This document shows positions 107-25,684 of a stretch of DNA of 26,696 nt, one piece after another; within the stretch, counting starts at the first letter, position 1; every line of letters begins with the position of its first letter. The stretch is from the IMG/VR virus record IMGVR_UViG_3300036985_004439, positions 1 through 26,696 of that record. One strand, written 5' to 3'. Position numbers and translations under genes: made by a program. The stretch comes from a virus. The notes beneath the pieces were generated by a model. The model had not been told where the DNA came from, did no database searches, and worked only from the letters and a program-made list of their open reading frames with translations.

Positions 107-607
107 TTAAGCTTCGTGTTTAGCGATAGCTTCTCGGGCGATAGACTGCGCATCCCCGAATGCGCGCAGAGCGGCTTCTCGCTCAGCGAAATCGGTGGGA
201 CGATCTAACCCTTCCAAATGGTCGCGCCATTTGAGATGCGCAATATTAGCCATCGCCGCCCGTAGTTCGTCAAGTTGATTCAACGCACCCGCCAACTCAT
301 TTTCGGCGTTAGCAGCCACATGAGCTAGCCGGCGAATTTCTCGCTCCTGCCCTTCTGCACGGTTATCTGCGGACAGTAACTGATTACCTACAGCTGAGAC
401 GAGACCAACATACTCTAGGTCTTCCGTAGTCAACCCTCGGCAAGCATTCACGCATGTTACGATGCGGCGGGCGTTGGCTCTTCCTTCGTCCATTCGAGGG
501 CCTGCTGTCATCGGAGTTCTTATACCCCCAAGAAGCAGCATTTCGTCTCCAGCTATGGTGTTATCGTACTTATCAAATGACCACGGTTCTGATGTATGTT
601 TGCTCAT
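107..607 (-). CDS. Hypothetical phage protein, N-terminal MSKHTSEPW module plus helical C-terminus
   Basis: This is a 166-residue protein of unknown function. The N-terminus (MSKHTSEPWSFDKYD) and the segment NARRIVTCVNACRGLTTEDLE form a module I recognise from small accessory proteins of many gammaproteobacterial phages, with no known function. Residues ~80-135 are rich in A, E, L and R with heptad-like spacing and are probably a coiled coil. The frame is open upstream to 682, but that stretch lies in the promoter and leader (654-682). The ATG at 607 is preceded by GAGAGG in a leader shared with the 2582 gene, so I chose 607. It is a single-gene unit in the non-structural promoter class. Confidence 0.8.
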   Translation of the reverse strand: MSKHTSEPWSFDKYDNTIAGDEMLLLGGIRTPMTAGPRMDEGRANARRIVTCVNACRGLTTEDLEYVGLVSAVGNQLLSADNRAEGQEREIRRLAHVAANAENELAGALNQLDELRAAMANIAHLKWRDHLEGLDRPTDFAEREAALRAFGDAQSIAREAIAKHEA

Positions 608-653
608 ACCTCTAATCCTCTCAGTCGAGCCGCCCAATGCAGCCCATGCGCTT

Positions 654-682
654 AAGGTATAATTATATCTCAAATACGTCAA
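654..682 (-). promoter_or_regulatory. Non-structural-class promoter A
   Basis: Minus strand: TTGACG (677-682), 17-nt spacer, TACCTT -10 (654-659), 47 nt before the ATG at 607. The AT-rich dyad GAGATATAATTATACCTT overlaps the -10. The leader then contains GGGCTGCATTGGGCGGC and GAGAGGATTAGAG, nearly identical to the leader of the 2582 gene. Confidence 0.7.
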
Positions 683-686
683 GCAT

Positions 687-711
687 TAAAAAGCCCTCAC
701 TAGGAGGGCTT
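687..711 (-). terminator. Rho-independent terminator after the tail tube gene
   Basis: On the minus strand, AGCCCTC and GAGGGCT form a 7-bp stem around a CTAGT loop, followed by TTTTTAAT. It lies 12 nt past the tail tube stop and just upstream of promoter A, separating the two units. Confidence 0.85.
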
Positions 712-722
712 CTCGTTTACTG

Positions 723-2195
723 TCACAGCGCAGGCGGCAAGTACCCAAACAGGCTTATGCCCACTGCATACCCGAGCACCGGGTCCTTGAAGGCGGTGCA
801 GTTGATAGCCACCTTGACCTTTTCGTTCCGGTTGAGCGCCTTTGTACCATCGCCCATGGTCATGCTTGGGATGTCCACCACGAACGCGCCATCGTTGTTG
901 CGCAGGCCCATGGCCAAGCTGACGCTGGTGTTATTGCGCACCGCCGCCAAGACCGCGCCGTTGACCATGACCGTCTCGGTCTCGATGGTCACTGCCAGGT
1001 TGCCGAGGTTGATAAACGCCGCGCCCAAGTTACCCAGCACGACTTCCGGCGTGACGCCATTGTCGATCGTGACTGTGGAGTCCTTGAAGTACGTGTCGTA
1101 CCCCATCTCGTCGATTCCAGCCACGCGCAGGCGCATGAAGTCCGCCGCCGTGTTGAATGCCTCAGACTGCACCATGTCAGTCCAGCCGCTGCCCAGCTTG
1201 CGCGTGGTCACGGGTGCCTCGATATCCTTGGCGACCATGCCAAACTCCAGGGTCGCTTTGTCCTCCAAGGGGAAGCCAAGCGCCATGGTGTTGCAGTAGG
1301 CGTCGCGGGCGTACTCGTAAAGCACCGGGCTGGTGTTGTAGCGAGCTTCGAGGGTGTGACGTACGCGCTGGAAATCGACATTGTCGACCGGCACGTTACG
1401 CACAAACGACCCGAGGTACAGATGGATGGTCTTGCCGGTGCCGGTGTCAGCGGTGTAGGCCTGCTCGCGCTGGCTGAGGGTGAGCTTGTTGGCAGTGATA
1501 GCGGCCACACGGGCCAGACCATAGTCGTCAGCATTGGCGAACCGAGTGGCAGTGTCGCTGCCGCCTACGTGCACCCACTGGCCGACGGTCAGGCCCAGCG
1601 TGGTGAAGTCCAACGTGGTGCTGGTAATGTTGCCGCTGGCATCGACGGCCAGATCGCCCGCAGTCGCCTGCACACCCACGATGTGGAGCACGGCAGACGC
1701 TGGCGCGGTTTCGGCAGTCAGGCCAACTACCTTGATTTCAGTCGCGGTGCTTGAGGCTCCCACAACTTTGAGGCCGTTGTTTGCCGGGGTACCCCAGCCA
1801 GCCGCATAGACCAGCGTGCCGGCAGCGACGATAGGGCCTGTCGGCACAGTGTAGCCAGTCGCCGTGGTGGCGGTAGGCAGCTTGCCGAATGGGTTTTGAC
1901 CCTTCCAGGTGCTGTAAAGTTGTGCGTCTCCAAAGAACCTCATCATATCGATGAAATTATCACTGGTGAACGCCGGGGAGGCTGCCAGACCGGTGATGGT
2001 TCCCTTGCGGGCCATGCGGTCAAGGCTGATAGGGTCCCGTGCGACAGTGGATAATTCTGCTGAAAACGAGCTGATTTCATTAATTTGCAGGTACTTCCAA
2101 GGGGTTAATGCGGTGGGAGAACATTCTCTGCAAATAGACAAAGATGTGCTATTCGTATCCGCCGCACCGATGGTGCTACATACGTCAAATGCCAT
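723..2195 (-). CDS. Tail tube protein (Phage_tube family)
   Basis: This 490-residue protein is the likely major subunit of the non-contractile tail tube. The region WKYLQINEISSFSAELSTVARDPISLDRMARKGTITG closely resembles the tail tube family typical of siphophages: N-E-I-x-S-F, then T-V-A-R-x-P-I-S and R-x-x-K-G-T. A glycine-, alanine- and threonine-rich beta region (~120-260) looks like the family's inserted domain. The C-terminal half is also beta-rich and ends in FGYLPPAL. Upstream in-frame ATGs exist, but ATG 2195 follows AGGAG at 9-10 nt and is 36 nt from an extended -10, like other virion genes. Three cysteines in residues 5-30 (C6, C22, C25) are unusual. A terminator follows at 687-711. 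Confidence 0.85.
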   Translation of the reverse strand: MAFDVCSTIGAADTNSTSLSICRECSPTALTPWKYLQINEISSFSAELSTVARDPISLDRMARKGTITGLAASPAFTSDNFIDMMRFFGDAQLYSTWKGQNPFGKLPTATTATGYTVPTGPIVAAGTLVYAAGWGTPANNGLKVVGASSTATEIKVVGLTAETAPASAVLHIVGVQATAGDLAVDASGNITSTTLDFTTLGLTVGQWVHVGGSDTATRFANADDYGLARVAAITANKLTLSQREQAYTADTGTGKTIHLYLGSFVRNVPVDNVDFQRVRHTLEARYNTSPVLYEYARDAYCNTMALGFPLEDKATLEFGMVAKDIEAPVTTRKLGSGWTDMVQSEAFNTAADFMRLRVAGIDEMGYDTYFKDSTVTIDNGVTPEVVLGNLGAAFINLGNLAVTIETETVMVNGAVLAAVRNNTSVSLAMGLRNNDGAFVVDIPSMTMGDGTKALNRNEKVKVAINCTAFKDPVLGYAVGISLFGYLPPAL

Positions 2196-2230
2196 GGCGT
2201 AAAATCTCCTGAGTTTTTGCATGCCATGGC

Positions 2231-2240
2231 ATTATATCAC
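2231..2240 (-). promoter_or_regulatory. Structural-class extended -10 promoter (tail tube)
   Basis: Minus strand TGTGATATAATG: TATAAT at 2231-2236 preceded by TGA, 36 nt from the ATG at 2195. There is no recognisable -35; that position is occupied by the upstream terminator. Confidence 0.7.
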
Positions 2241-2629: not shown

Positions 2630-2658
2630 AAGATATAATTATCTTACTCTACCGTCAA
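2630..2658 (-). promoter_or_regulatory. Non-structural-class promoter C
   Basis: Minus strand: TTGACG (2653-2658), 17-nt spacer, TATCTT -10 (2630-2635), 48 nt before the GTG at 2582. AAGATA-ATTA-TATCTT forms a dyad covering the -10. The promoter overlaps the 3' end of the tail terminator gene. The leader can form a GGCTGC/GCGGCC hairpin. Confidence 0.75.
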
Positions 2659-5339: not shown

Positions 5340-5350
5340 AGTATATCATT
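5340..5350 (-). promoter_or_regulatory. Structural-class extended -10 promoter (connector operon)
   Basis: Minus strand TGATATACT (TATACT at 5340-5345), 32 nt from the ATG at 5308, without a clear -35. The inverted repeat at 5367-5386 lies where this promoter's -35 would be, so one regulator could affect both divergent promoters. Confidence 0.6.
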
Positions 5351-5359
5351 CAAGCGGTG

Positions 5360-5387: not shown

Positions 5388-5417
5388 CAGCGGGTGTTTA
5401 ACCAACTAGGAATAGAA

Positions 5418-9991: not shown

Positions 9992-10002
9992 ATTGTAGCA
10001 CA
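9992..10002 (-). promoter_or_regulatory. Structural-class extended -10 promoter (protease-capsid operon)
   Basis: Minus strand TGTGCTACAATG: TACAAT at 9992-9997 preceded by TGC, 31 nt before the ATG at 9961. Only a weak -35 (TTGCGT, 18-nt spacing) is visible. The upstream GCCGTGGCGACG resembles GCCGTGGCGGCG upstream of the small terminase promoter. Confidence 0.6.
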
Positions 10003-13726: not shown

Positions 13727-13739
13727 ATTAAGCCCTCAA

Positions 13740-13949: not shown

Positions 13950-13951
13950 CT

Positions 13952-14790: not shown

Positions 14791-14792
14791 CG

Positions 14793-14981: not shown

Positions 14982-14982
14982 A

Positions 14983-15566: not shown

Positions 15567-15727
15567 AATGGGTCCTCCTTCCGTGCTTGTTGTTCTTCCA
15601 GCAGCTGCTCGATGCGTCGGCGGCGAGCCACTTTGTCTGGGTCTTCTTTGATTGGCGTCCGGTAGCGTGCGTCAATAATGCTGGCCGCTGCTGGGCCTAT
15701 TGGCTTGCCGTTACGACCCGCTGCCAT
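15557..15727 (-). CDS. Hypothetical small basic protein
   Basis: A 56-residue, strongly charged protein (MAAGRNGKPIGPAAASIIDA, then DPDKVARRRRIEQLLEEQQARKEDPLC) ending in a long basic/acidic helix. No family is recognised. The frame extends to 15898 but that part only shadows the DUF3310 gene. The ATG at 15727 overlaps the DUF3310 stop by 17 bp, and the stop overlaps the next gene's start, fitting the tightly packed operon. Confidence 0.65.
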   Translation of the reverse strand: MAAGRNGKPIGPAAASIIDARYRTPIKEDPDKVARRRRIEQLLEEQQARKEDPLCS

Positions 15728-16121
15728 TGAGTTTCTCCACCAGCTTGTTGAGGTACCAAGCCGCTTTCTGGGCGTCTTCCACACCATTCTTCTCCCACAT
15801 GCGCAGCAGGTACTCAACGGCGCGATCGTAGTCGGAGAACTGGTCGAGCGTAGCACCAGCTGCGGTCGCCTTGGCTGCCAGCGCTTGACGGATGTCATAC
15901 ACCTCTACGCCCGGCAGCAGCTGGTAGTGCTTGGGGTTCTGGACGGTGTCGTGGGTCTGGATGACACCGATAGGCCGCAGATTCGCACTCCGCCACTCAT
16001 CGTCATTCTCTGAGGCTGCCCACATTTTCAGCACGTCGTCCCAGTAATACCACTTACCTCCGTCTTTACAGTACTTCAAGTCATTGCTCTCATGCGTTGC
16101 GCGATCAGGTATGTTACTCAT
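15711..16121 (-). CDS. DUF3310-family phage protein
   Basis: A 136-residue protein. NPKHYQLLPGVEVYDIRQAL, then YDRAVEYLLRMWEKNGVEDAQKAAWYLNKLVE, is the DUF3310 signature ('P.HY.....E..D', 'G...KY..R...K.....DL.KA..YL..L'), related to the domain in T7 gp1.7, which affects nucleotide metabolism. A preceding segment (LKYCKDGGKWYYWDDVLKMWAASENDDEWRSANLRP) is an extra module. The ATG at 16121 overlaps the XRE stop by 8 bp and follows GAGGAG. Function in this phage is unknown. Confidence 0.8.
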   Translation of the reverse strand: MSNIPDRATHESNDLKYCKDGGKWYYWDDVLKMWAASENDDEWRSANLRPIGVIQTHDTVQNPKHYQLLPGVEVYDIRQALAAKATAAGATLDQFSDYDRAVEYLLRMWEKNGVEDAQKAAWYLNKLVEKLNGSGS

Positions 16122-16374
16122 TGCTCTTCTCCTCTGTTGTGAATAGCTCAAATCTAGCCGTCTGCCAGTCAGCAGTCAAGAAATAATTATATCCAACCAA
16201 GCCTTGCTGTTTGAGCCACAGCAGCAGCCTTATATGCGACTCGGCGATGGCTGGCGGCGACTGCTCACCACGCTCCCACTTGCCATAGGTGTCGCGATGC
16301 ACCCCCAGGCAAGCGGCCATCTGCTTGATGTTAAGGCCCAGCGCTTGCCGGGCCTGTAGGAATTGTGGCGTCAT
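16114..16374 (-). CDS. XRE-family helix-turn-helix regulator
   Basis: An 86-residue regulator. Residues ~5-45 (FLQARQALGLNIKQMAACLGVHRDTYGKWERGEQSPP) form a canonical XRE/Cro HTH: Q-A-R-x-A-L-G-L, M-A-x-x-L-G-V, then Y-x-K-W-E-R-G-x-x-x-P. The C-terminal half is helical and may dimerise. It is the second gene of the operon, with its ATG overlapping the previous stop (TAATG). It is a candidate repressor of the AAGATA-ATTA-TATCTT dyads in the non-structural promoters; no direct evidence links them. Confidence 0.8.
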   Translation of the reverse strand: MTPQFLQARQALGLNIKQMAACLGVHRDTYGKWERGEQSPPAIAESHIRLLLWLKQQGLVGYNYFLTADWQTARFELFTTEEKSNE

Positions 16375-16571
16375 TAACGGATGCCATATTCTTCATCCAG
16401 CGCATCGAAATGTTCTGGCCCTGCCGTGCCAAACACCACATCACCGTCTTCAAGGTCAGCCAAGCTATCTCGGAAGTCTTCAAAGCGGAGGAAATTCGCA
16501 TCCGGATAGTCAACCATGTCGATCTCCGCTACGCCATTCACTGTGTCTGCCATAAGAAAACGTGCGTTCAT
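16374..16571 (-). CDS. Hypothetical acidic protein, first gene of the 16.6-kb operon
   Basis: A 65-residue, very acidic protein (MNARFLMADTVNGVAEIDMV, FEDFRDSLADLEDGDVVFGTAGPEHFDALDEEYG). The charge and size are reminiscent of DNA-mimic or small inhibitor proteins, but no family is identified and this is only a resemblance. GAAGG precedes the ATG at 16571. It is the promoter-proximal gene of a long operon (16571 to 12152). Confidence 0.68.
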   Translation of the reverse strand: MNARFLMADTVNGVAEIDMVDYPDANFLRFEDFRDSLADLEDGDVVFGTAGPEHFDALDEEYGIR

Positions 16572-16622: not shown

Positions 16623-16651
16623 ACTATAAGCCTAGCAGGCGTACATTGCAA
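16623..16651 (-). promoter_or_regulatory. Non-structural-class promoter G (16.6-kb operon)
   Basis: Minus strand: TTGCAA (16646-16651), 17-nt spacer, TATAGT -10 (16623-16628), 52 nt before the ATG at 16571. It lacks the dyad of the other class members but has the same spacing and a GGGCTG in the leader. Confidence 0.7.
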
Positions 16652-16653
16652 GC

Positions 16654-16681
16654 AATAAAAAGCCCTGAATGTGACAGGGCT
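16654..16681 (-). terminator. Rho-independent terminator after the portal gene
   Basis: Minus strand: AGCCCTG and CAGGGCT form a 7-bp stem around a 7-nt loop, followed by TTTTATTG. It lies just past the portal stop at 16691 and immediately before promoter G. Confidence 0.85.
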
Positions 16682-16690
16682 CTCAATTAT

Positions 16691-18022
16691 TTACAGCATT
16701 GTGCCTAGCGTGGCCGGAACTGGTAGGTTTGCCCGGATGCGCAGCTCCTCCTCGGTCTCGGGGTCGGTCAGCACGATCCCGGCAGATGCCAGTGATTGCA
16801 CGTAGCGGCCAAGAGCGTCCAGGCTTTCTCGCTGGATGACACCTGGCCGGAGGGTGGGCATGTACGCCGCATCCAGCCCATTCCAGCGCCAGAGCATTGG
16901 CAGCAATTGCCGCTCCAGGCAGTTGTACAGGCTATCAAGCCACGCCTTGGCGGCCCGCTCGAACACCTCAACCATGTCACCCATGGCATTCTGGGCGCCG
17001 GAGGTACCAGAACCCCCCATGAATAGGAATTGCAGCAGCATGCTACGCGACACCGCCATGTCGTGGTCTTGAATGGCGCGATCGTAATCCACACTGGACG
17101 CGCCGCTGGGTGTGAGCAACTCGACTTGCAGCTGCTGGGTGCTCGTGAAGGTCTTGCCACCGTCTACCCCGATATTCTCGTAGGGTTTTGACCACAAGGT
17201 CACACCGGCCTGCTGGTTCACCTTGATTTTGGGGGCGATGCTCTCAATCTCGGAGACTATCTTGGCGTAGGCGGCACGCTGCACCTCCGGCACGCTCTCA
17301 TCGGCTGCCAGGCGCTTGATGTCGGCGTTTGCCGTCACGACCGGAAAGCCTGACATGCGCTCGGCCAGGATGGCGCGGAAGGATTTGAGGCGGTTAGCGT
17401 AATACCAGTCGTCATACCCGGCCCGCAGCAACGAACGTCCCTCGGGGCTGCCCTTGTGCTGAATAGGGACGAAATGCACCGCCCGATCGCTCGGGATAGT
17501 GATTTGAGCCAAGCCGGTGGGCGGGTACTGCAGAATGCCCTGCACCCGGCCAGTCTCGTCTGTCATCCAGTCGGCCAGAGTATCAGGGTGGACCTGCACG
17601 ACCTGGCCGATGCCAATCGTGCCGTCTGCTTGGGCTTTGCGAGTGATATCCACAAAGGCCCAGCCATACGGCAAGGCGCTGGCAAGCTGGTCGAGGAAGT
17701 CAACCCAGGTGGCCGAGAGAGGGTAAGTAGGGTCGCCAAGCGTCGTCAGGGTCTTGTAGACCCACTTGGCCAAGTCGTCCGCCAAGTCCGGGTCGGCCAC
17801 ACCCTGGGCGCTATCGACGTGGAAATCGGTGGTCTTGAAGATATTGGTGATGCAGGTCATCGCCCCGCCGACGGTGGAGCTGTTGAGCATCTTGCCAATG
17901 GTCTTGCGGCCTTTGCTGCCTCGTAGGTCGGGCAAGTACTCGTCGTCTACACTGGTACGCCCGCCGTTGCCTGCTCGGGCATAGCTAAGGGATGCCAGCG
18001 GGGTGTCTTGTTGGTCGGCCAT
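16691..18022 (-). CDS. Portal protein (DUF935-like)
   Basis: A 443-residue portal subunit, the dodecameric DNA gate of the capsid. YGWAFVDITR, then VVQVHPDTLADWMTDETGRVQGILQYPP, then VHFVPIQHKGSPEGRSLLRAGYDDWYYANRLKSFRAILAERMSGFPVV follow the Mu gp29/DUF935-type portal pattern, including the conserved 'P.GRS.LR..Y..W..K....' stretch. The C-terminal part (LRIRANLPVP) resembles the ending of DUF935 proteins. AGAGG precedes the ATG. It has its own extended -10 promoter (35 nt upstream) and terminator, so it can be expressed alone. Confidence 0.85.
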   Translation of the reverse strand: MADQQDTPLASLSYARAGNGGRTSVDDEYLPDLRGSKGRKTIGKMLNSSTVGGAMTCITNIFKTTDFHVDSAQGVADPDLADDLAKWVYKTLTTLGDPTYPLSATWVDFLDQLASALPYGWAFVDITRKAQADGTIGIGQVVQVHPDTLADWMTDETGRVQGILQYPPTGLAQITIPSDRAVHFVPIQHKGSPEGRSLLRAGYDDWYYANRLKSFRAILAERMSGFPVVTANADIKRLAADESVPEVQRAAYAKIVSEIESIAPKIKVNQQAGVTLWSKPYENIGVDGGKTFTSTQQLQVELLTPSGASSVDYDRAIQDHDMAVSRSMLLQFLFMGGSGTSGAQNAMGDMVEVFERAAKAWLDSLYNCLERQLLPMLWRWNGLDAAYMPTLRPGVIQRESLDALGRYVQSLASAGIVLTDPETEEELRIRANLPVPATLGTML

Positions 18023-18056
18023 GCGGGCGCGCCTCTGGTGTTAAAGGGTTGCCCGC

Positions 18057-18067
18057 AGTATATCACA
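18057..18067 (-). promoter_or_regulatory. Structural-class extended -10 promoter (portal)
   Basis: Minus strand ACGTGTGATATACTG: TATACT at 18057-18062 preceded by TGA, 35 nt before the ATG at 18022, directly after the upstream gene. No useful -35 is present at 16-18 nt. Confidence 0.7.
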
Positions 18068-18075: not shown

Positions 18076-18645
18076 CTAGGCGGGTAAGTCCAGCCCGCCC
18101 TCGTAGAACTCAAGGCGGGCGGTGACATCTTGCCCGGCGCTGAGGGATTCGAAGGTGAGCAGATAGCTAGTGTTAGGCGCCAGTATGCGGTTGCTGCCGA
18201 ACGAGGCGAGCGTGGAGCCCTTAGAGTTGGTCGCATCAGGCCCAATAAGGAATAGCGGGGCCGCCACCTCATCTCCATCATCTGTCAGCGTGAAGCCTGT
18301 CAGCAGTTGGGTTTGAAGTGTGGCCGCAGCCCCAGGAGTGGTGTTCATGTTGTACACCTGGTCGGGGGTGCCGCCGGTGTAGGTCGGGTCTTTGTACACG
18401 CGGGCGATAATGCCATTATCTGTGTAGGCAAACACCCGCGCCTTGAGGTCAACAGGAAGCGCGCCGGTCTTGATGATAGACGTGGCGCGCTGCCCGCTTG
18501 TCATGCCAGTGAGACGCCGCTGAGCCTCCCATTGCGTCCCATTCTTGGCGTTGGCCTCGGCGTACCCCTGGACGACAAACGCCCCGACACCCCGCCGTAT
18601 CTTGTCCACGAACCGCCAAAACAACCCATCGTACTGCACGCCCAT
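18076..18645 (-). CDS. Unknown protein, probably virion-associated
   Basis: A 189-residue protein. The N-terminus (DGLFWRFVDKIRRGVGAFVVQGY) is amphipathic. The C-terminal two-thirds are beta-rich with many G, T and S residues and end ILAPNTSYLLTFESLSAGQDVTARLEFYEGGLDLPA, which reads like a beta-sandwich decoration or fibre domain. I do not recognise a named family. The ATG at 18645 follows GAGG and lies 32 nt from a structural-class extended -10; a GTG at 18654 is less likely. The promoter type, and the place just before the portal, suggest a virion or head-assembly protein; this is an inference. Confidence 0.75.
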   Translation of the reverse strand: MGVQYDGLFWRFVDKIRRGVGAFVVQGYAEANAKNGTQWEAQRRLTGMTSGQRATSIIKTGALPVDLKARVFAYTDNGIIARVYKDPTYTGGTPDQVYNMNTTPGAAATLQTQLLTGFTLTDDGDEVAAPLFLIGPDATNSKGSTLASFGSNRILAPNTSYLLTFESLSAGQDVTARLEFYEGGLDLPA

Positions 18646-18666
18646 ATCCCGCACCTCATAGCAGAG

Positions 18667-19023
18667 TCATGCGGGCATTATACCAGCTTGGCGCAATATC
18701 GCACACACCGCGCAGTTCTTGTTACCAACTGACCGTATGTGGTTGAGTGGGTGCCGCACGCACTTGGTGCCGACGTAGAACCTGGCGCCCATAAGCTTAG
18801 CGACTTTACGGCTACGCGGCACCAACTCATCCGGCACCACGTAGCCGCCTGGTTCAACGACCGGCCACAATGGGCGACCTTGCGGACCGTGTTGCTTGTA
18901 GTACGCGGTCTTGGCAGCCGCTATGGCGTTCGGCTCGGTGCTGGACTGCGCGTCATACGTCCAGACAGCCTCTGGGTGACGACCTACGCGCCAGCTGCTA
19001 TCTGGCAGGCGGGAGACTATCAT
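18667..19023 (-). CDS. Hypothetical protein with C-terminal treble-clef-like zinc site
   Basis: A 118-residue protein. Residues ~80-113 (ARFYVGTKCVRHPLNHIRSVGNKNCAVCAILRQAG) contain C-x-x-H and C-x-x-C groups in the arrangement common to treble-clef zinc modules that precede HNH-type endonucleases, but no nuclease domain follows. The N-terminal half (SRLPDSSWRVGRHPEAVWTYDAQSS) is unrecognised. The start overlaps the previous stop as ATGA. The promoter for the next gene lies inside its 3' end. Confidence 0.68.
   Translation of the reverse strand: MIVSRLPDSSWRVGRHPEAVWTYDAQSSTEPNAIAAAKTAYYKQHGPQGRPLWPVVEPGGYVVPDELVPRSRKVAKLMGARFYVGTKCVRHPLNHIRSVGNKNCAVCAILRQAGIMPA
18677..18687 (-). promoter_or_regulatory. 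Structural-class extended -10 promoter (18076-18645 gene)
   Basis: Minus strand CTGGTATAATG: a perfect TATAAT at 18677-18682 preceded by TGG, 32 nt from the ATG at 18645. It lies inside the 3' end of the previous coding region. Confidence 0.65.
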
Positions 19024-19211
19024 TCCTTGCGCCTAGCGGGCCCGCACGCCAGCAACAGCGCGGCGAACAGGAACCAGCCCCAGCCGTCCGCATCCATGAG
19101 CGCGAGGTAGGCGGCCACGAAGCCGAACAGCAGGCACGGGATGTTAGCTACTAGCAATGTTTTACCCACGGCCAGTACTCCCAAAGCCGCCCAGCCTATC
19201 AGACTCCACAT
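19020..19211 (-). CDS. Small two-helix membrane protein
   Basis: A 63-residue protein that is mostly hydrophobic: LIGWAALGVLAVGKTLLVANIPCLLFGFVAAYLALM and WGWFLFAALLLACG form two or three membrane segments, with a basic tail (PARRKE). It could be a holin-like or inner-membrane protein, but nothing nearby is a lysis gene. The ATG follows AGGAG at 8 nt and overlaps the dUTPase 3' end by 50 bp; the stop overlaps the next start as ATGA. Confidence 0.65.
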   Translation of the reverse strand: MWSLIGWAALGVLAVGKTLLVANIPCLLFGFVAAYLALMDADGWGWFLFAALLLACGPARRKE

Positions 19212-19662
19212 CTGGCAGCTCCTCGCACTCTACCAGTTCGACAGGCTCCACGCGCTCGACCATAAGCTGGCAGAGCCGTTCGCCATCGGCGATCGCCTGG
19301 ACTTCTCGGCTGTGGTTGACCAGCGTCACGTAATACTCGAGCGAGTAGTCCTCGTCGCCCACGCCCACGCAGTTGATAAGCGTAAGGCCCTTCTTGAGGC
19401 TTAGCCCACTACGAGGATACATTTTAAGGCAGTAGCCAGGTGCTGGACGCATCGCTAGGCCGGTCGGCACCAAGACCCGATCGCCCGGTTGCAGCTGCAG
19501 CGTACCGTGCGTGATGTGCGCCCACACCTCGCCGTGCTGCGTGAAGCACTTGACGGTTTCAGTGTGCAGACAGGCCCTGACATCCAGGCCGGCGGCCAGA
19601 GCTGTGGCACGGGCTGGCAGAGTGGCCAGAGGTGTGAGTTTCTTGACGTAAAGTGTGGTCAT
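19162..19662 (-). CDS. dut: dUTPase (dUTP diphosphatase)
   Basis: A 166-residue trimeric-type dUTPase that hydrolyses dUTP to dUMP and pyrophosphate, keeping uracil out of phage DNA. All five motifs are present: AAGLDVRA (~23-30), PRSGLSLKKG (~83-92), VGVGDEDY with the catalytic aspartate (~99-106), CQLMVERVEP (~131-140) and the C-terminal RLGGFGSTGRG. Compared with most members, motif 3 reads G-V-G-D rather than G-x-I/V-D, a minor change. The ATG at 19662 overlaps the previous stop (ATGA); an in-frame extension to 19713 is unlikely. It is in the 20483-18667 non-structural operon. Confidence 0.92.
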   Translation of the reverse strand: MTTLYVKKLTPLATLPARATALAAGLDVRACLHTETVKCFTQHGEVWAHITHGTLQLQPGDRVLVPTGLAMRPAPGYCLKMYPRSGLSLKKGLTLINCVGVGDEDYSLEYYVTLVNHSREVQAIADGERLCQLMVERVEPVELVECEELPDVESDRLGGFGSTGRG

Positions 19663-19916
19663 TTGACAATCCTCACATACTTCCAAACTCCTACTCGGCC
19701 CAGATGACCGCATGCCCCTTCAGGCCGGCAAATGCAAATCTCGTCGCCCGTGTCATCTGTAATGCCAAAGGACCACTTAGAATGTAAGTTACGCTCGTAT
19801 ATCTTGCCAGCGGTGATGTACTCGCATTTGGTGTAGGTGGTATGGACCGCCTCTATGCGGCTTACTACTGGCACCTCGCGCAGACGGCGCGGCCCCTTCT
19901 TGGTTTTACGAATCAT
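19659..19916 (-). CDS. Small SH3-like phage protein (paralogue of the 20271-20483 gene)
   Basis: An 85-residue protein with a basic N-terminus. CEYITAGKIYERNLHSKWSFGITDDTGDEICICRPEG is a small beta-barrel-like pattern ('T.GK.Y.......+.I.DD.G.E....'), found in many small phage proteins of unknown role. It aligns with the 20271-20483 product through TAGKxYE, HxxWSxGIxDDxGxEICxxRP and HLxRxGVWxYV, showing duplication. GAGG precedes the ATG at 19916, which overlaps the upstream stop as ATGA. Confidence 0.72.
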   Translation of the reverse strand: MIRKTKKGPRRLREVPVVSRIEAVHTTYTKCEYITAGKIYERNLHSKWSFGITDDTGDEICICRPEGACGHLGRVGVWKYVRIVK

Positions 19917-20158
19917 GCTAGCAGCCTCTTAACGATTGGAAGGTGATTGTAGAGATGGTAGTTATCCGTGGTCAGCTGGTTTACAACGTTGCGCTCGAAG
20001 GCGCCCAGCTCAGGCCACATATTCTCCAGCGCACCCCGGCAGTACTGCTTGTGCTGCCAGTTGCTGCCGGTTACTTGAGTACGGGTGAGATAGTAGCTGG
20101 TGTGGCAGTGACCTTGCGTCGCAAGATGCCGATGAAGTGGCCGTGACGCCACGACCAC
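19913..20158 (-). CDS. 3' part of a probable frameshifted phage gene
   Basis: This frame ends YYLTRTQVTGSNWQHKQYCR, then GALENMWPELGAFERNVVNQLTTDNYHLYNHLPIVKRLLA, which reads as a real protein. The first ~15 residues (from the GTG at 20158) lack a ribosome site and look like noise. The preceding gene (20071-20274) reads well only up to GILRRK and continues into this frame after a -1 shift near 20113. The two are best seen as halves of one ~120-residue protein, split by a one-base deletion or by frameshifting. An ATG at 20020 could otherwise start a 35-residue peptide. Confidence 0.6.
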   Translation of the reverse strand: MVVASRPLHRHLATQGHCHTSYYLTRTQVTGSNWQHKQYCRGALENMWPELGAFERNVVNQLTTDNYHLYNHLPIVKRLLA

Positions 20159-20274
20159 TGCGCCCGCTTACACACTGCTTGCTGGTCACTGCCACACCAG
20201 CGCGGCTTGATGGTGCCGTCGGCGATGACCGCCACGCCGAGCCGGACGAGAAATTCTACGAAATAGAGTTTCAT
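20071..20274 (-). CDS. 5' part of a probable frameshifted phage gene
   Basis: A 67-residue reading frame: MKLYFVEFLVRLGVAVIADG, TIKPRWCGSDQQAVCKRAQW, SWRHGHFIGILRRK are convincing, but the last 13 residues (VTATPATISPVLK) look out of frame. The ATG overlaps the upstream stop as ATGA, so it is a genuine start. The natural continuation is in the 19913-20158 frame (see there). Function is unrecognised. Confidence 0.65.
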   Translation of the reverse strand: MKLYFVEFLVRLGVAVIADGTIKPRWCGSDQQAVCKRAQWSWRHGHFIGILRRKVTATPATISPVLK

Positions 20275-20483
20275 ACGAGGTTACCCTCTGCGTCTACGTA
20301 GTACCAGACTCCGATTCGGTCGAGATGTGCGCAAGTATTTCCAGGGCGTCTTACGCATATTTCTTCGCCCTCATCGTCAATGATACCCTGCGACCACATG
20401 GTGTGTTCCAAGAGCTCATACACTTTACCGGCTGTCACAAAATCACATCCTTCGTAGTCGGTCATTACGTATTGCTTTGCCAT
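20271..20483 (-). CDS. Small SH3-like phage protein, first gene of operon E
   Basis: A 70-residue protein, paralogous to the 19659-19916 product: CDFVTAGKVYELLEHTMWSQGIIDDEGEEICVRRPG, then HLDRIGVWYYV. The ATG at 20483 follows AGAGGG and lies 49 nt from its -10; the frame upstream to 20573 is only leader. It leads the operon that includes the split gene, the paralogue and dUTPase. Role unknown. Confidence 0.72.
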   Translation of the reverse strand: MAKQYVMTDYEGCDFVTAGKVYELLEHTMWSQGIIDDEGEEICVRRPGNTCAHLDRIGVWYYVDAEGNLV

Positions 20484-20531: not shown

Positions 20532-20560
20532 AAGATAATTATATCTCTGACCGCTGTCAA
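20532..20560 (-). promoter_or_regulatory. Non-structural-class promoter E
   Basis: Minus strand: TTGACA (20555-20560), 17-nt spacer, TATCTT -10 (20532-20537), with the dyad AGATA-TAAT-TATCT over the -10. It overlaps the stop of the large terminase gene. The leader has GGGTCGCATCGGGTGGC, a diverged form of the element at the 607 and 2582 genes. Confidence 0.75.
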
Positions 20561-22224
20561 GCGATGCCGACAATTATTCCCGCAGCTCCGCCAGGCATGC
20601 CAACCCCCACCCCGGGCTCTGGCTGGTCTGGCCGCGACGGCGCGTAGCAAATCTTCACGGCATCCGCCAGGTTGGGCGACTTGGTGCCCTTGGGCTGCTT
20701 ATCGACAGTTATTTTGCCAGCGCCATTGGTGCCCCACACTGGCTGGCTCAACTCGGCCATCAGCTCGGTGCAGCCAGCCGGCAAGGATATAAGCTCGTCA
20801 GGGTCTTCAATCTCGCCGGTCGTGACGGCCTCATAAGTCTTGCGGAACCGCTCCCGCAGCGCCCACCACGCCTGGGAGTTTGCGTTGGAGTAGTGGTCGC
20901 GGTTGCGCCGCTCAATGCCCGGGCCGGTCTCACCCGTGTGAATGTCACCAGCCGGGTTGACCACAGCGGCGCTTGGGTTCCACGCCTCAATGGCTGGCAG
21001 CCGCTTACCCACGTTGACCTCGGCGACTTGCTGAGCCCCGGCCCTGGCACCCGCCCCGACCCCGTTGACCTCGTAGCGCCAAGTGTCGGCCTTGCTCACG
21101 ATCGCCTTGACGTAATACTTGCGCCCTACGACGTTCGACTCGCCGCCCTCGCTCTCCACGCTCTCCAACACAATACCGTGCCGAACTGCCTGCGCGTTGA
21201 CGTCACCCCCTCCGTCTGCAACGTCCATAGCAGCGATGCGCTTGCCGGACGGCTCGATGCCTAGCTTGATGTGCGCCTCGACCGCAGCGCTCACCCAGAG
21301 GCCTGGGATGAGGACATTAGACTGGGCGGCAGAAGGGTCCCGGTCAACCTCACGCGCCAGAATATGCAGCGTACCCTCTCGCTCGGCCTGCGCCCGGCGT
21401 GAGTCGTACCACTCTTGGGTCTTGTTGGGGTGGTCACGCCAGTCGAATATGAATACGCGCAAGAAACCATCTCGCCGCTCAGGCAGCACGAGTCCAGCCT
21501 TGCGACGGCGGTGGAATAAGCCGTTGTTCACGTTGTACGTGCTGACAGACACCCTGCAGCGTGTGGCATCGCCGAGCGAGCTGTCCACTGCTTCCTGGTC
21601 TTCCAGAAAATCCTCTTCGTCCACAACGTAGGCGAAGTAACGGCCACCTCGACCGATGTTGCGGCCTGCCTCGCCCATGATGGTCGAGCCGTTGGACGGG
21701 TTAATAATCCGCATGTAGGGCATGTGGTCTTTTTCGTTGAACCCTGCAGGCCAGAACAGATCTTGAGGCAGCCAGCGGATAACCATGCGCACCTTCTCGA
21801 ACAGCGTGGATCGGTCGGACAGACGGTCCACCAAGTCCTCTTTGCGCGACCCGAGCCCCAGGTTGACGTCAGGTATGAATAGCCACGCCCACGTAAGCAT
21901 GCCTATGGCGATCCACGACACGCCTGCATCCCGACATTTCTCCACGAGGATAGATTGCTGGTCGAGCATAGCGCGGTGCATCTCGTCTACCAGCTCTAGC
22001 TGGCGAGGGAACATGATGAACGGGAATATTTTCACCTCGGCCCGGGGGTCGATGGTGATCATGAAGTCGGTTATCCAGTCAGCAGGGTTATTGGCGTAGT
22101 GGGCCATGGCGATTGCCTTGGCTTTGGGGTCGGTGCGGAGCTTATGGACGAGCTTTATGCGCTCTTGAAACACCTCGCGGTAGTCGAGCGGCCACGTCTC
22201 GCGGTTTACTTCTCGGATTGGCAT
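20557..22224 (-). CDS. Terminase large subunit
   Basis: A 555-residue packaging motor with ATPase and nuclease domains. The adenine-side motif is PRQLELVDEMH (~73-83). The P-loop is KCRDAGVS (~96-103), which carries its lysine at the front of the loop like lambda gpA rather than in the classical GK[ST] place. Walker B is FAYVVDEE (~197-204), followed by SVSTYN as the coupling motif. The nuclease domain has AMDVADGGGD (~331-340), YEVNGVGAGA and SPNLADAVKI, the expected acidic positions. The ATG at 22224 has a structural-class promoter 34 nt upstream. The separation of TerS and TerL by five to six small genes is unusual. Confidence 0.92.
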   Translation of the reverse strand: MPIREVNRETWPLDYREVFQERIKLVHKLRTDPKAKAIAMAHYANNPADWITDFMITIDPRAEVKIFPFIMFPRQLELVDEMHRAMLDQQSILVEKCRDAGVSWIAIGMLTWAWLFIPDVNLGLGSRKEDLVDRLSDRSTLFEKVRMVIRWLPQDLFWPAGFNEKDHMPYMRIINPSNGSTIMGEAGRNIGRGGRYFAYVVDEEDFLEDQEAVDSSLGDATRCRVSVSTYNVNNGLFHRRRKAGLVLPERRDGFLRVFIFDWRDHPNKTQEWYDSRRAQAEREGTLHILAREVDRDPSAAQSNVLIPGLWVSAAVEAHIKLGIEPSGKRIAAMDVADGGGDVNAQAVRHGIVLESVESEGGESNVVGRKYYVKAIVSKADTWRYEVNGVGAGARAGAQQVAEVNVGKRLPAIEAWNPSAAVVNPAGDIHTGETGPGIERRNRDHYSNANSQAWWALRERFRKTYEAVTTGEIEDPDELISLPAGCTELMAELSQPVWGTNGAGKITVDKQPKGTKSPNLADAVKICYAPSRPDQPEPGVGVGMPGGAAGIIVGIA

Positions 22225-22257
22225 AGTAGGGCGGCACGGTTGTGAGTCATGCCGCCG

Positions 22258-22268
22258 AGTATATCATG
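22258..22268 (-). promoter_or_regulatory. Structural-class extended -10 promoter (large terminase)
   Basis: Minus strand CATGATATACTC: TATACT at 22258-22263 preceded by TGA, 34 nt from the ATG at 22224. No -35 is recognised. It overlaps the 3' end of the zinc-ribbon/XRE gene. Confidence 0.65.
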
Positions 22269-22554
22269 GCCAGAGGCTGGCATACTCTTGAGGGTCTACG
22301 CGCCCGCTCTCTATGGTACAAACCTTCGCGGAACCGAGGCCAGAAGATTTACCAAATTCGAACAGAGATAAGCCGGCTAGCTGTCGGCGACCGAGTAGCT
22401 TCTTGCCTTCTACAACCCATGCGGCCATCTCGTCCGGCACGACGCCTGAACTACGGCACCTCAAGCACCCGACGCCCTTGTAGGCTCCAGTGCCGTCAGT
22501 GAAGCTCACAAACGCCTCTCGGCTACCCGCTCCGTCACAGCTGGGACACCTCAT
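22264..22554 (-). CDS. Zinc-ribbon plus XRE-type DNA-binding protein
   Basis: A 96-residue protein combining two modules. Residues 3-37 (CPSCDGAGSREAF, then VGCLRCRSSG) contain two C-x-x-C knuckles of the DnaJ-like ribbon type. Residues ~50-90 (GKKLLGRRQLAGLSLFEFGKSSGLGSAKVCTIESGRVDP) form an XRE-type HTH ending in the usual E-S-G-R. It may regulate transcription, perhaps at the phage promoters; the target is unknown. AAGGAG precedes the ATG by 10-11 nt. It sits between the terminase paralogue and the large terminase gene. Confidence 0.78.
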   Translation of the reverse strand: MRCPSCDGAGSREAFVSFTDGTGAYKGVGCLRCRSSGVVPDEMAAWVVEGKKLLGRRQLAGLSLFEFGKSSGLGSAKVCTIESGRVDPQEYASLWP

Positions 22555-22560
22555 AGCCAG

Positions 22561-23106
22561 TCACTCCTTAATCCAGGTCAGATGATGCGCTTGGTCGTCG
22601 TACGCATCGCCTGCTGGTCGCTTGATGGCGTCCGGCCGTGCGCTGCGCTCCATCACGAAGACCCCGTCGTATTTGCGGCCTTGGCAGACGGCTTGCGGGC
22701 CACCGGTGTGGATTACGCAATCAGCCTGTGGGAGCTGCACCTCTGGGCCGATGTACTCCACCCAGTCTACCAGCGCTACTGGCGGGGACCCGTGCCACTG
22801 CCGCTCCTCTTCAAGCAGCTTGCAACCCGGATATTGGGCAACACGCCTTTCGGTTATGCGGTTGCCGAAGGTGAGGCGGCGAGATTTGTACACCAGCTCG
22901 CGAGAGTGGTAGAAACCCCAGCCGGTGAGAACCGTGCTCACACCGACGTCACGGGCTTGCAGCACCAAGTACGTGCCGCCCTTGGCTTTCGCCTTCTCCA
23001 GCCAGTCGAGAAGCTCAAGCTGGCGTTGCCACAGCTGGGACTTCTGGCCGGGCTGGCGCATGTCGTGAAAGGTTTCGTGCCGTTCGATAAATTCTTTAGG
23101 TGTCAT
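22561..23106 (-). CDS. Truncated terminase ATPase-like paralogue, probably inactive
   Basis: A 181-residue protein co-linear with the ATPase core of the large terminase in this window. WQRQLELLDWLEKA matches FPRQLELVDEMHRA; LQARDVGVST (~49-58) matches EKCRDAGVSW; DCVIHTGGPQAVCQGRKYDG followed by VFVME (to ~153) matches STIMGEAGRNIGRGGRYFAY followed by VVDE. The P-loop lysine is Q50 here and the Walker B aspartate is M152, and there is no nuclease domain, so ATP hydrolysis is unlikely. It is intact, ATGA-coupled to its neighbour and expressed with the 24983 operon, so it may have a regulatory or structural role rather than being decay. The similarity is by eye. Confidence 0.75.
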   Translation of the reverse strand: MTPKEFIERHETFHDMRQPGQKSQLWQRQLELLDWLEKAKAKGGTYLVLQARDVGVSTVLTGWGFYHSRELVYKSRRLTFGNRITERRVAQYPGCKLLEEERQWHGSPPVALVDWVEYIGPEVQLPQADCVIHTGGPQAVCQGRKYDGVFVMERSARPDAIKRPAGDAYDDQAHHLTWIKE

Positions 23107-23438
23107 AGCCTATCAATCCTCTTGTTGAGCACCGCCAGGTACTCGCCCATGGCGTCGTGCTGTTCGTGCAGGAGCACTTGGTCTTCTGCAGCCAGACTAA
23201 AATACTGCTTGTTGCTCTCCATGAATGTCTTGAGCTTAGCCATGCGGTCAGCCAGCTCGTCTCGTTCTGCTATCATGCGCGTCACGTGGCCGGGCTGGGC
23301 TAGACGGTAGGCAACAATCTCCCACTCCGCATCGAGACGATGGCCCCAGTCGAAAGCGCAGCGCCCATTGTGTCCTGCATGCCCTTCATCTCCGCACCAG
23401 GTTCCGGCAGTCGCCGCCAGTCCATTCAATCCAGTCAT
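23103..23438 (-). CDS. crAss001_48-like phage protein with N-terminal Cys/His segment
   Basis: A 111-residue protein. The C-terminal ~60 residues (ERDELADRMAKLKTFMESNKQYFSLAAEDQVLLHEQHDAMGEYLAVLNKRI) match the common small helical phage family related to crAss001_48: 'E..EL......L..F......F..L....Q.LL..Q...M..Y...L..R'. Its function is unknown. The N-terminal part (WCGDEGHAGHNGRCAFDWGHRLDAEW) has Cys and His residues that could bind a metal. Both ends overlap neighbours as ATGA. Confidence 0.75.
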   Translation of the reverse strand: MTGLNGLAATAGTWCGDEGHAGHNGRCAFDWGHRLDAEWEIVAYRLAQPGHVTRMIAERDELADRMAKLKTFMESNKQYFSLAAEDQVLLHEQHDAMGEYLAVLNKRIDRL

Positions 23439-23686
23439 TGTGCATCTTGAAGCCTCATAATTTGCTCAACAGCGGCCAGACACTCCTCGTCCGTCACGCA
23501 TGGGTTGTGGATGATAATCTCCTCGATGAGATGGGCGCGACGCTTAGCTCTGGCCTGCTCAGCGTGCGCTTCGATGTGAGATTGTTGGTCTAAGTGGGCG
23601 CAGACGTGCTTAGCGGTAGCAGGCTGTCCGCAGATAGTGCACAGGTTGTCATAGCGCACCATCCCTCCGGTTTTATAGGTTCTCAT
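23435..23686 (-). CDS. Small zinc-ribbon phage protein
   Basis: An 83-residue protein: NLCTICGQPATAKHVCAHLDQQSHIEAHAEQARAKRR holds a C-x-x-C and a further C/H group, then a helical region (HLIEEIIIHNPCVTDEECLAAVEQIMRLQ). The zinc module is clear, the family is not. The ATG overlaps the previous stop as ATGA; an internal ATG eight codons in is less likely. Confidence 0.68.
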   Translation of the reverse strand: MRTYKTGGMVRYDNLCTICGQPATAKHVCAHLDQQSHIEAHAEQARAKRRAHLIEEIIIHNPCVTDEECLAAVEQIMRLQDAQ

Positions 23687-23889
23687 GGTTTCACCTCGTC
23701 GCGGGCTTTGAGCATGGCGTCGGCTAGAGCGTAGGCATCGTGCGCCATGGCTTCCACGCCTTTAGGGTAAGCGTATCCGCTCTGGTCTAGCGATTGCAAA
23801 GCCTTAGCGGCGAAATAGTCACGCAGCGTCATGCCCTGCTGCATCTGGCCGTCTGGGTCAGCCAGCGGGAATGCGTATTGTGTGCTCAT
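23683..23889 (-). CDS. Conserved small phage protein (GMTLRDYFAAKA family)
   Basis: A 68-residue protein: QQGMTLRDYFAAKALQSLDQ is followed by GVEAMAHDAYALADAMLKARDE. The G-M-T-L-R-D-Y-F-A-A-K-A signature and the helical A-Y-x-x-A-D-A-M-L-x-A-R ending are widespread in small accessory proteins of enterobacterial and Pseudomonas phages, with no established function. The ATG overlaps the preceding stop as ATGA. Confidence 0.8.
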   Translation of the reverse strand: MSTQYAFPLADPDGQMQQGMTLRDYFAAKALQSLDQSGYAYPKGVEAMAHDAYALADAMLKARDEVKP

Positions 23890-24983
23890 ATCTCAACCCT
23901 CCAGTTCATCTGCTCGCAAAGCTCGCGCATATGCTCAGGCGCTACCGGGTGGCCAGACATATCAGCCAGCAGACGAGCGGCCAGGCCGTACACGTCCGGG
24001 TTAATCAGGCACTCCTTGGGCTTGCAGTGGATAAGCTCGCCGTCTGCGGTGCGGAACACCACAAGTTCGGGCTCATTCAGCAAGAGCTGGCAGCCTTGGT
24101 GCAGGAAGGCGGCATGGTGGACAGTGTGCAGCGTGGGCTCCACGCCGGATTGCAGCTTGGCCATAAACGTTGCGGTGTGGTCGCCTTCGCCTTTGTCTAC
24201 GTGCAAATAGCCGCCATCGTCTGCAAACTCCGAGCATCCTGCCACACGATTCTCAATAGAGGTAAAATCCAATTTCTGCAGCCTGATGGAGGTTTTCCAT
24301 GCTTTACGGCTTATCCGTGTTTCTCCGGCACGCATCAGGTATACGTACCGCCCCTCTTGCTGCCAGCTCCAACCTGAAGGTGCTGCTGGAGGGTTTTCTA
24401 AGTCTTGTGGCCATTCGCCCACATGCTCAACCGCCCATTGCAACGCCAGTTTACGCGGCATGACAGGCTGCGCGTCTTCCAGACTGGTGAACGGATCGAA
24501 CTTGTATTTATCCGATTTGAGATCCGGCACGGCGGCAAGCACATTATCCGTGGCCTCTTGCAGGCGTGCAGTCACTGCTTGCTCTGACAGGTCAGCTGGT
24601 CGCTTCTCCAGAGTGTCGCGCCAGTCTCCGAGGACTTCGCCACCGGCGGCTCGTGAGAAGCATCCAAACCACCCTCCGTCCTTGCTAGCTGTTGGGGCCC
24701 CCTCACACCACATCCAATCACCGTCAGCTTGTTGCGCCAAGTGTGTAGCCCACTCCGGCGCATCCTTCCAGCTCGGCTTGTTCTGCAACTCTGCGCGGCG
24801 GGCGAGCCATTGCTGACGGTACACAATGAGTGGCTGCCAGGTAGTGCCGCCGTTAATCACAACATGGCTCTCGCAGAACACAGCCCCATGCTCAAACAAC
24901 TCATCCCCCGCCGGTACCACGTGTGGTGTGTTCTTAGGCCACTCGTGCACGTCACGCGCCAGCCAGTCCAATTGCTCGCTCAT
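23886..24983 (-). CDS. Large tryptophan-rich hypothetical phage protein
   Basis: A 365-residue protein, the first and largest in its operon. It seems modular: LDWLARDVHEWPKN (~5-18) and LQWAVEHVGEWPQD (~200) are related helical units, each followed by a W-rich stretch (WKDAPEWATHLAQQADGDWMWCEG, SGWSWQQEGRYVYLMRAGETRISRKAW). The C-terminal region ends HPVAPEHMRELCEQMNWRVEI. I do not recognise a named family or enzyme motif. The ATG at 24983 follows GAGGG and is 46 nt from its -10; the frame to 24998 is leader. The next genes overlap it and each other. Confidence 0.75.
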   Translation of the reverse strand: MSEQLDWLARDVHEWPKNTPHVVPAGDELFEHGAVFCESHVVINGGTTWQPLIVYRQQWLARRAELQNKPSWKDAPEWATHLAQQADGDWMWCEGAPTASKDGGWFGCFSRAAGGEVLGDWRDTLEKRPADLSEQAVTARLQEATDNVLAAVPDLKSDKYKFDPFTSLEDAQPVMPRKLALQWAVEHVGEWPQDLENPPAAPSGWSWQQEGRYVYLMRAGETRISRKAWKTSIRLQKLDFTSIENRVAGCSEFADDGGYLHVDKGEGDHTATFMAKLQSGVEPTLHTVHHAAFLHQGCQLLLNEPELVVFRTADGELIHCKPKECLINPDVYGLAARLLADMSGHPVAPEHMRELCEQMNWRVEI

Positions 24984-25028
24984 AGTTTTATCCCTCAATC
25001 CGGCAGCCCCTCGCCGCCGTCTGAGATA

Positions 25029-25057
25029 AATTTATTTCACTTCTGGGCTTCTGTCAA
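25029..25057 (-). promoter_or_regulatory. Non-structural-class promoter F
   Basis: Minus strand: TTGACA (25052-25057), 17-nt spacer, TAAATT -10 (25029-25034), 46 nt before the ATG at 24983. It overlaps the 3' end of the small terminase gene. The leader has GGGGCTGCCGGATTGAGGG, a diverged version of the leader element of the other class members. Confidence 0.72.
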
Positions 25058-25684
25058 CATGGCTCTGTACGCTTTGGTGAAATCTTCTATCGGGGCGTCA
25101 GAAGCTGGCAGGTTTGCCGTCACAGAGGCCACTACGCCGGAGTGCTCGACACGTTCCACAAAGCCGCCTTGCATTTTGCCCAGCAGCTCAGCCGCTCTCA
25201 GCCGGTCCTTAGCCGCCTCGCTGATAACGTTGAACTCCAGCTCGTACCGGCCGTCCGGCTCAGGGCGGAACTTCTTGATGAAGCGTAGGAGCTCGGTAGG
25301 GATGCCATCGGGGTCCTCCACGATGTAGGCGACTCTGTACTCGCCGTCTTCTCCTGGCCGCGTCTCCTGGCTCGTCACGTCCACGAACTGCGATCCGTAG
25401 CCAGAGAGGATGGCCGATAGCTCGGACTTGATGTCCTCGTTGCTCGCGATGTGCTTTTTGGCCGTCTCGCATTGAAGGGCCCTGAGAGCCTCTATGACGC
25501 GTTCTTCCCTAAGCAGGCGCCAGGCGTATGTCGCGGCGGTCCGCATCGCTACATGGTGGCACTCAAAGGCTTCCATGTAGCATTTGTAGCGGGGCATTCC
25601 GGTAAGGTCCTTCATGGCCCACAATTCGACGAATTTCTGTTCCTGCGCTGATAAGACCGACAGCGCTTCTTCTTGCGGCGTCAT
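25037..25684 (-). CDS. Terminase small subunit
   Basis: A 215-residue protein that recognises phage DNA for packaging. The N-terminal DNA-binding domain (LSAQEQKFVELWAMKDLTGMPRYKCYMEAF, then AATYAWRLLREERVIEALRALQ) follows the Terminase_2 pattern: L-x-x-Q-E-x-x-F-V, then a helix-turn-helix and a V-x-x-A-L-x-x-L. The central part is beta-rich (YRVAYIVEDPDGIPTELLRFIKKFRPEPDGRYELEFN), followed by helices ending in AYRAMLTEAQ. I chose the ATG at 25684, 8-9 nt after AGGAG; the GTG at 25690 is too close to it. A structural-class promoter lies 34 nt upstream. Confidence 0.88.
   Translation of the reverse strand: MTPQEEALSVLSAQEQKFVELWAMKDLTGMPRYKCYMEAFECHHVAMRTAATYAWRLLREERVIEALRALQCETAKKHIASNEDIKSELSAILSGYGSQFVDVTSQETRPGEDGEYRVAYIVEDPDGIPTELLRFIKKFRPEPDGRYELEFNVISEAAKDRLRAAELLGKMQGGFVERVEHSGVVASVTANLPASDAPIEDFTKAYRAMLTEAQK

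Follow-up and report, generated by a model that had tools for sequence, protein, structure and literature searches.

The window analysed here is the whole 26,696-base fragment of the virus record IMGVR_UViG_3300036985_004439, which comes from a siphophage, and at several of its virion genes the promoter bases beside the inferred start site form the reverse complement of that gene's ribosome-binding or start region. PHROGs profiles name the virion genes of the minus strand as the small and large terminase subunits (TerS and TerL), portal, head morphogenesis (gpF-like), protease-like, scaffold, major head protein, neck and tail genes. Genes for dUTPase, exonuclease, deoxyribosyltransferase-like and helix-turn-helix proteins, together with small genes without known function, lie between them, and the alternation of virion genes with short non-structural units that an earlier note had read from the DNA is thus borne out by name. 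Only two of the genes discussed, a DNA methyltransferase gene (5376-6671) and an antirepressor-like gene (10671-11336), do not lie on the minus strand. The head and tail genes are related to those of Enterobacter phage Mulvp2, Pseudomonas phage KPP23 and others, and the nearest isolates for TerL and portal are Vibrio phages of about 60 kb and Mulvp2; a search of bacterial genomes for portal relatives found none. A close relative, IMGVR_UViG_3300044471_000002 (54,265 bp; hereafter G001), covers most of the window with about 70-90% DNA identity across matching stretches and is probably a nearly complete genome because its ends meet inside TerL. In Mulvp2, the Vibrio isolates and the further relatives G002-G005, the TerL, portal, gpF and capsid genes are separated by other genes, many of them non-structural, and the head genes of KPP23 are contiguous. 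Interleaving by itself is not unique to the window.

Virion units begin with an extended -10 promoter, TGnTATAMT. The window has 6 exact matches where 0.75 +/- 0.74 are expected (0/100 shuffles reach 6), all on the minus strand and about 30-35 nt ahead of a virion gene start, and a seventh site of this type, TGCTACAAT, precedes the 9961 gene. An alignment of 28 virion sites shows conservation of the TG, the -10 and an A seven bases past the -10, which makes the inferred +1 an A in 21/28 sites, and there is no conserved -35. The earlier description of virion units with an extended -10 and no good -35 is confirmed. All eight TGnTAYAHT matches on either strand of G001 lie directly ahead of virion genes, namely TerS, TerL, protease-like, 5308, tail, tape measure, tail protein and tail fibre. 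Both promoter classes of the window, virion and non-structural, are found again in G001, and the virion class is also present in Mulvp2 and the cultured Vibrio phages. The gpF-like gene had been singled out as the one exception, which holds for the window and G001, where it has no virion-type promoter of its own, but not for G002, G004 and the Vibrio phages, in the last of which that promoter is also locked in the sense described below. Neither a phage sigma factor nor an RNA polymerase was seen among the PHROGs matches of about 25 G001 proteins. A match TGTTACAAT, which would serve the tail terminator gene, lies in the 3' end of an endonuclease gene (3074-4000, minus strand; zinc-ribbon/GIY-YIG-like, PHROG 681) placed before that gene; it lies within an insert absent from G001 and is probably a chance match. 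The absence of the endonuclease gene from G001 suggests a homing insertion. A DNA polymerase gene in G001 (L041 14258-17892) is apparently split by a GIY-YIG homing endonuclease gene.

The earlier view that two interdigitated classes have promoters of their own and are controlled unit by unit is well supported, not least by the TGnTAYAHT matches of G001. However, promoters alone cannot separate the classes, because several junctions have no terminator and upstream units should therefore read into virion genes. The virion leaders at these junctions have a hairpin, missed by the earlier note, that is predicted to block just this RNA and would supply a missing part of the control scheme. The discriminator, a stretch of 6 bases that separates the -10 from the inferred start site, is often the reverse complement of the ribosome-binding/start region of the same gene; this holds for most virion units preceded by a terminator-less co-directional unit (Table 1). 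Because the inferred start lies past the discriminator, only RNA from an upstream promoter has both arms. The strength of such a lock is expressed as the additional energy, in kcal/mol, needed to open the start region when the RNA is a read-through product rather than one from the gene's own promoter. The predicted values are 5.8 for TerL, 7.1 for the 18645 gene, 7.7 for portal and 11.8 for the tail gene, and the G001 homologue of TerL reaches 12.1. When the 5' end of the RNA is moved from -6 to -1, the predicted opening cost drops stepwise and the blocking fold is lost. At the portal genes of G003 and G005, the -10 itself serves as an arm (GTTAC or GTTACAC). In the window, G001 and three Vibrio phages alike, the promoter of the 5308 gene is retained but comes without a lock.

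The complementarity is stronger than expected by chance. A local shuffle of the discriminator only is too weak for GC-rich sites, and a swap test was used in its place, in which each leader receives the 40 nt found upstream at other virion-type promoters. Over 37 sites, the observed mean lock is 5.05 compared with 2.11 +/- 0.39 kcal/mol after swapping, and 0/50,000 permutations reach the observed value; the corresponding figures are 3/20,000 for the window's seven sites and 0/100,000 with one site per cluster. The arms also change in a compensatory manner. At the 18645 gene, the CCCGCA/UGCGGG pair of the window is replaced at the same place in G001 by GCCAGCAC/GUGCUGGC, and the two proteins are only 32% identical. 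The TerL arms of three relatives are CCCCTG/CAGGGG or CCCCTC/GAGGGG, and a gene for a 247-aa protein between TerL and portal has AGCCCTATC/GATAGGGCT, AGCCCT/AGGGCT, GCCCTCA/TGAGGGC or CTCGC/GCGAG, in most cases followed by a U-run that yields a terminator-like hairpin overlapping the promoter. Lock pairing thus persists when the sequence is replaced.

Locks depend on what lies upstream. The median lock is 7.05 after a co-directional open reading frame without a terminator and 0.7 where there is no such neighbour (p = 2e-4). Vibrio lentus phage 1.089.O and Vibrio phage 13VV501A, which had not been used before, behave consistently: five units directly after co-directional non-structural genes, among them those of the 247-aa gene, portal and gpF, are locked at 7.4-12.2, whereas 13 others, after opposite-strand genes, virion genes or long gaps, range from 0.5 to 8.0 (exact p = 2.3e-4), with the 13VV501A portal (8.0) as the one clear exception. 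Chance complementarity in GC-rich leaders could be argued from single shuffles at GC-rich discriminators, which give p of only 0.02-0.12, but the swap tests, the compensatory pairs and the Vibrio context test make it highly improbable.

The promoters, the complementarity with its statistics, the context dependence and the compensatory changes are observed in the DNA itself. They are best explained, with a probability of about 70%, by a read-through lock of the kind known from T4 genes e, soc, 49 and I-TevI, with start sites, timing and the effect on translation being predicted. Two sets of units share one strand. The non-structural ones have ordinary -35/-10 promoters; the virion ones have the extended -10 TGnTATAMT, then a 6-nt discriminator and, in most cases, A as the inferred +1. 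If the unit ahead is co-directional and lacks a terminator, the discriminator of the virion unit, or promoter bases beside it, is usually reverse-complementary to the virion unit's own ribosome-binding/start region. RNA reading in from upstream would contain both arms, fold and hide the start, and in some relatives the fold may act as an intrinsic terminator. RNA from the virion promoter would start past the 5' arm and remain open, so that the virion gene is made only from its own promoter, presumably late.

The hairpins might instead act mainly by stopping read-through transcription, through attenuation or termination, rather than by blocking translation. Consistent with this, the element of the 247-aa gene in L047, L049 and the Vibrio relatives takes the form of a terminator-like hairpin whose U-run precedes the AUG. 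A U-run is missing from the locks of the window, however, and their 3' arms reach up to or across the Shine-Dalgarno sequence or AUG, so that termination is unlikely as the main function. Many phage mRNAs are protected by 5'-terminal hairpins, and the hairpin of the non-structural class in the window lies inside its own transcript; by analogy, the virion hairpins could form a stabilising 5' end of the genes' own mRNA if transcription really began some 6 nt upstream of the inferred starts. Since the portal 5' arm occupies exactly -6 to -1, this would require a start directly past the -10, whereas the conserved A sits 7 nt past the hexamer; a stabiliser should moreover be independent of the upstream neighbour. 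An mRNA stabiliser is quite unlikely on these grounds. The repeats lie across the inferred start site, where operators are commonly placed, and could be DNA operators at +1 to which a regulator of the virion promoters binds. Yet the arms differ between sites (GCGGGC, GGCGGC, CCCGCA, GCCATG, CCCCTG, AGCCCT) with the pairing kept, the position of the 3' arm follows that of the ribosome-binding site or AUG, and the arm pairing is absent at most sites without upstream read-through, which makes operators very unlikely.

Several observations weigh against the read-through lock. The tail gene of the window is locked despite a preceding terminator, the upstream neighbour of portal has a virion-type promoter itself, the portal and tail locks of G001, both preceded by terminators, are weak, and the tail genes of Mulvp2 and G003 have no lock. 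At TerL and the 18645 gene, the stop codon of the upstream gene lies in or next to the 5' arm, so that ribosomes finishing there might open the fold or even bring about translational coupling. The context classes behind the 7.05 versus 0.7 comparison rest on mechanical open reading frame calls, and the Vibrio context groups were not assigned blind, the sites having been sorted by their annotated neighbours when the script-computed values were already known. All sites were picked by consensus, some of those outside the window are probably chance matches, and relatedness among the sites lowers their effective number.

The non-structural promoters form a distinct class. Each has a -35 near TTGACA, a spacer of exactly 17 bp and then a -10; the -35 is TTGACn or TTGCAA at six of them and TTGACG, paired with TACCTT, at the one at 682-654. 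The earlier description of such a class is confirmed, and the count is seven rather than six, the 16179 promoter seemingly being the one left out. Their overlap with 3' ends of genes of the other class, also claimed before, maps for the two classes together to the TerS, TerL, gpF-like, tail terminator, 22554 and 19023 genes. The palindrome AGATATAATTATCT or its variant AGATATAATTAT is present in most of them, and AGATATAATTAT has 7 matches with one mismatch allowed compared with 0.02 expected. As the -10, the hexamer at a distance of 17 bp from TTGAC (TATCTT, TACCTT, TAAATT, TATAGT) is the most likely candidate; the TATAAT embedded in AGATATAATTAT was ruled out, being only about 11 bp from TTGACA, where TATCTT is at 17. 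A hairpin with an AUNGG-type loop starts within a few bases of the inferred start site in most non-structural units. Across ten copies, 90% of its pairs are kept and two pairs are changed on both sides. A CsrA-type site was rejected for the AUUGG hairpin, as most loop copies do not have ANGGA, and an Rfam search of the leader RNA gave no match at the gathering threshold. A scan of viral contigs for the leader hairpin returned 13 loci, of which the 11 outside the two G001 copies are without the promoter sequence, so that the hairpin with its promoter was not found in that scan beyond the window and G001. A copy of GGATATAATTAT lies at 16183-16194 (minus strand), just upstream of the 16179 promoter and without a leader hairpin, and a similar sequence is present at about 4400 in G001.

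Table 1 Promoters, hairpins, locks and genes mapped in the window
Feature	Position	Strand	Remark
Virion-type promoter TGGTATACT of TerS	25718..25726	-	discriminator GGCAGC, no lock (-0.1 kcal/mol)
Terminase small subunit	25037..25690	-	PHROG 51
TTGACA-17-TAAATT promoter	25029..25057	-	inside 3' end of TerS gene; conserved in G001
Leader hairpin, 5'-terminal, GGCGGC-GAGGG-GCUGCC	25002..25018	-	24983 unit
Non-structural unit	22264..24983	-	gene starts 24983, 23889, 23686, 23438, 23106, 22554
Virion-type promoter TGATATACT of TerL	22258..22266	-	overlaps stop of 22554 gene
TerL lock GGCGGCA / UGCCGCC	22230..22256	-	5' arm GGCGGCAUG starts within discriminator; 3' arm immediately ahead of AUG 22224
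Terminase large subunit	20557..22224	-	PHROG 2
TTGACA-17-TATCTT promoter with palindrome AGATATAATTATCT	20532..20560	-	overlaps 3' end of TerL
Leader hairpin core, AUCGG loop	20506..20522	-	20483 unit
Non-structural unit	18667..20483	-	gene starts 20483, 20274, 20158, 19916, 19662 (dUTPase), 19211, 19023
Virion-type promoter TGGTATAAT of 18645 gene	18677..18685	-	within 3' end of 19023 gene
18645-gene lock CCCGCA...UGCGGG	18648..18675	-	
18645 gene	18076..18645	-	PHROG 5335 (function unknown); virion-type promoter
Virion-type promoter TGATATACT of portal	18057..18065	-	
Portal lock	18023..18056	-	5' arm GCGGGC is exactly discriminator -6..-1; 3' arm GCCCGC abuts AUG 18022
Portal protein	16691..18022	-	PHROG 113
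Intrinsic terminator-like hairpin	16658..16684	-	past portal
TTGCAA-17-TATAGT promoter	16623..16651	-	16571 unit
TTGACT-17-TAGATT promoter	16151..16179	-	16121 gene; no leader hairpin
Non-structural unit	12152..16571	-	runs into gpF-like head gene (12152-13096, no virion-type promoter)
TTGACA-17-TATCTT promoter	12137..12165	-	overlaps 3' end of gpF-like gene
Leader hairpin core, AUUGG loop	12111..12127	-	12092 unit
Virion-type promoter TGCTACAAT of 9961 protease-like gene	9992..10000	-	weak lock 9962-9990
Virion-type promoter TGATATACT of 5308 gene	5340..5348	-	no lock
TTGACG-17-TATCTT promoter	2630..2658	-	overlaps 3' end of tail terminator gene
Leader hairpin core, AUUGG loop	2604..2620	-	2582 gene
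Virion-type promoter TGATATAAT of tail gene 2195	2231..2239	-	
Tail-gene lock GCCAUGGC...GCCAUGGC	2191..2230	-	AUG within 3' arm
Tail protein	723..2195	-	PHROG 290
TTGACG-17-TACCTT promoter with AGATATAATTAT	654..682	-	directly past terminator-like hairpin
Leader hairpin core, AUUGG loop	628..644	-	607 gene

Long early RNAs of T4 genes e, soc, 49 and I-TevI are repressed, and the late promoters, which lie in the 5' arm, cut it off; for gene e, the measured repression is about 100-fold (PMC3014915). The window is alike in that the long RNA is predicted to fold over the Shine-Dalgarno sequence or AUG, at TerL, the 18645 gene, portal and the tail gene, in that the own promoter would yield RNA without the 5' arm from the inferred +1, and in that the arrangement would serve to delay a late product. 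The T4 late promoters, however, are gp55-dependent and read TATAAATA, which the extended -10 TGnTATAMT does not match, and the 5' arm in the window is usually the discriminator itself. Furthermore, the T4 review names four genes, whereas the predicted device here is found repeatedly along the virion genes of a siphophage group unrelated to T4. By this analogy, the control in the window would work like the T4 gene e type without the window being a member of the T4 family. Within the group of 1.089.O, 13VV501A and Mulvp2 (siphophages of 58-62 kb), the homologous TerL, portal, major capsid protein/head and tail genes are interleaved in the same order and have the same virion-type promoters, several of them with locks, but many inserted units have the opposite orientation. 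The window stands apart in that almost all of its units share a strand, the arrangement in which a lock would be most needed. The AGATATAATTATCT non-structural promoter of the window was not found in Mulvp2, the Vibrio phages not having been searched for it.

Cluster K mycobacteriophages have a fixed 13-bp start-linked repeat (SAS) before a subset of non-structural genes, about half of them with an inverted repeat (ESAS) (PMC3203893). The window likewise has a repeated start-linked element before non-structural genes, but this consists of a promoter and hairpin of other sequence, and by inspection the 13-bp SAS GGGATAGGAGCCC before the start codon is not present in the window leaders. Phage morons are similar in being non-virion genes between virion genes with their own promoter and in some cases a terminator, and the cargo differs between the window and G001. 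In contrast, the units here are multi-gene, include nucleotide-metabolism genes (dUTPase, exonuclease) and often lack terminators. The interval between the tail terminator and tail genes holds a 98-aa gene (2286-2582) in the window and a 317-aa gene (16284-17237; PHROG 200, annotated lipoprotein, SPFH-like in appearance) in G001 under the same promoter class, so that this cargo is exchangeable. Two genes of the 20483 unit, 19659-19916 and 20271-20483 (minus strand), belong to one small family (PHROG 6261/15978) and are probably a duplication.

The methyltransferase gene on the opposite strand encodes a cytosine DNA methyltransferase and is not at the same place in G001; an inverted repeat ATGACATATGTGTCAT upstream of it (5350-5400) may be an autoregulatory site. 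A non-coding, AT-rich repeat of 182 nt occurs in two copies, 77% identical, upstream of the 9961 gene (10061-10242) and of TerS (25791-25972). G001 holds a similar pair, and the repeat is possibly a replication, packaging or control site.

The proposed read-through lock is a mechanism by which a phage could hold to its timetable even with early and late genes intermingled on a single strand. As a rule for the whole group, to which we incline with somewhat better than even confidence, the discriminator of the late promoter would double as an anti-Shine-Dalgarno/anti-AUG arm wherever non-virion read-through threatens, leaving the gene translatable only from own-promoter RNA. Gene context alone would then predict which promoters carry a lock, which is testable in the cultured Vibrio phages. 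A control known from a few T4 genes would be extended to recurring use in a different phage group. If true, the rule would let non-virion units enter the virion block without upsetting its timing, and might account for phages acquiring genes among the virion genes without mis-expression.

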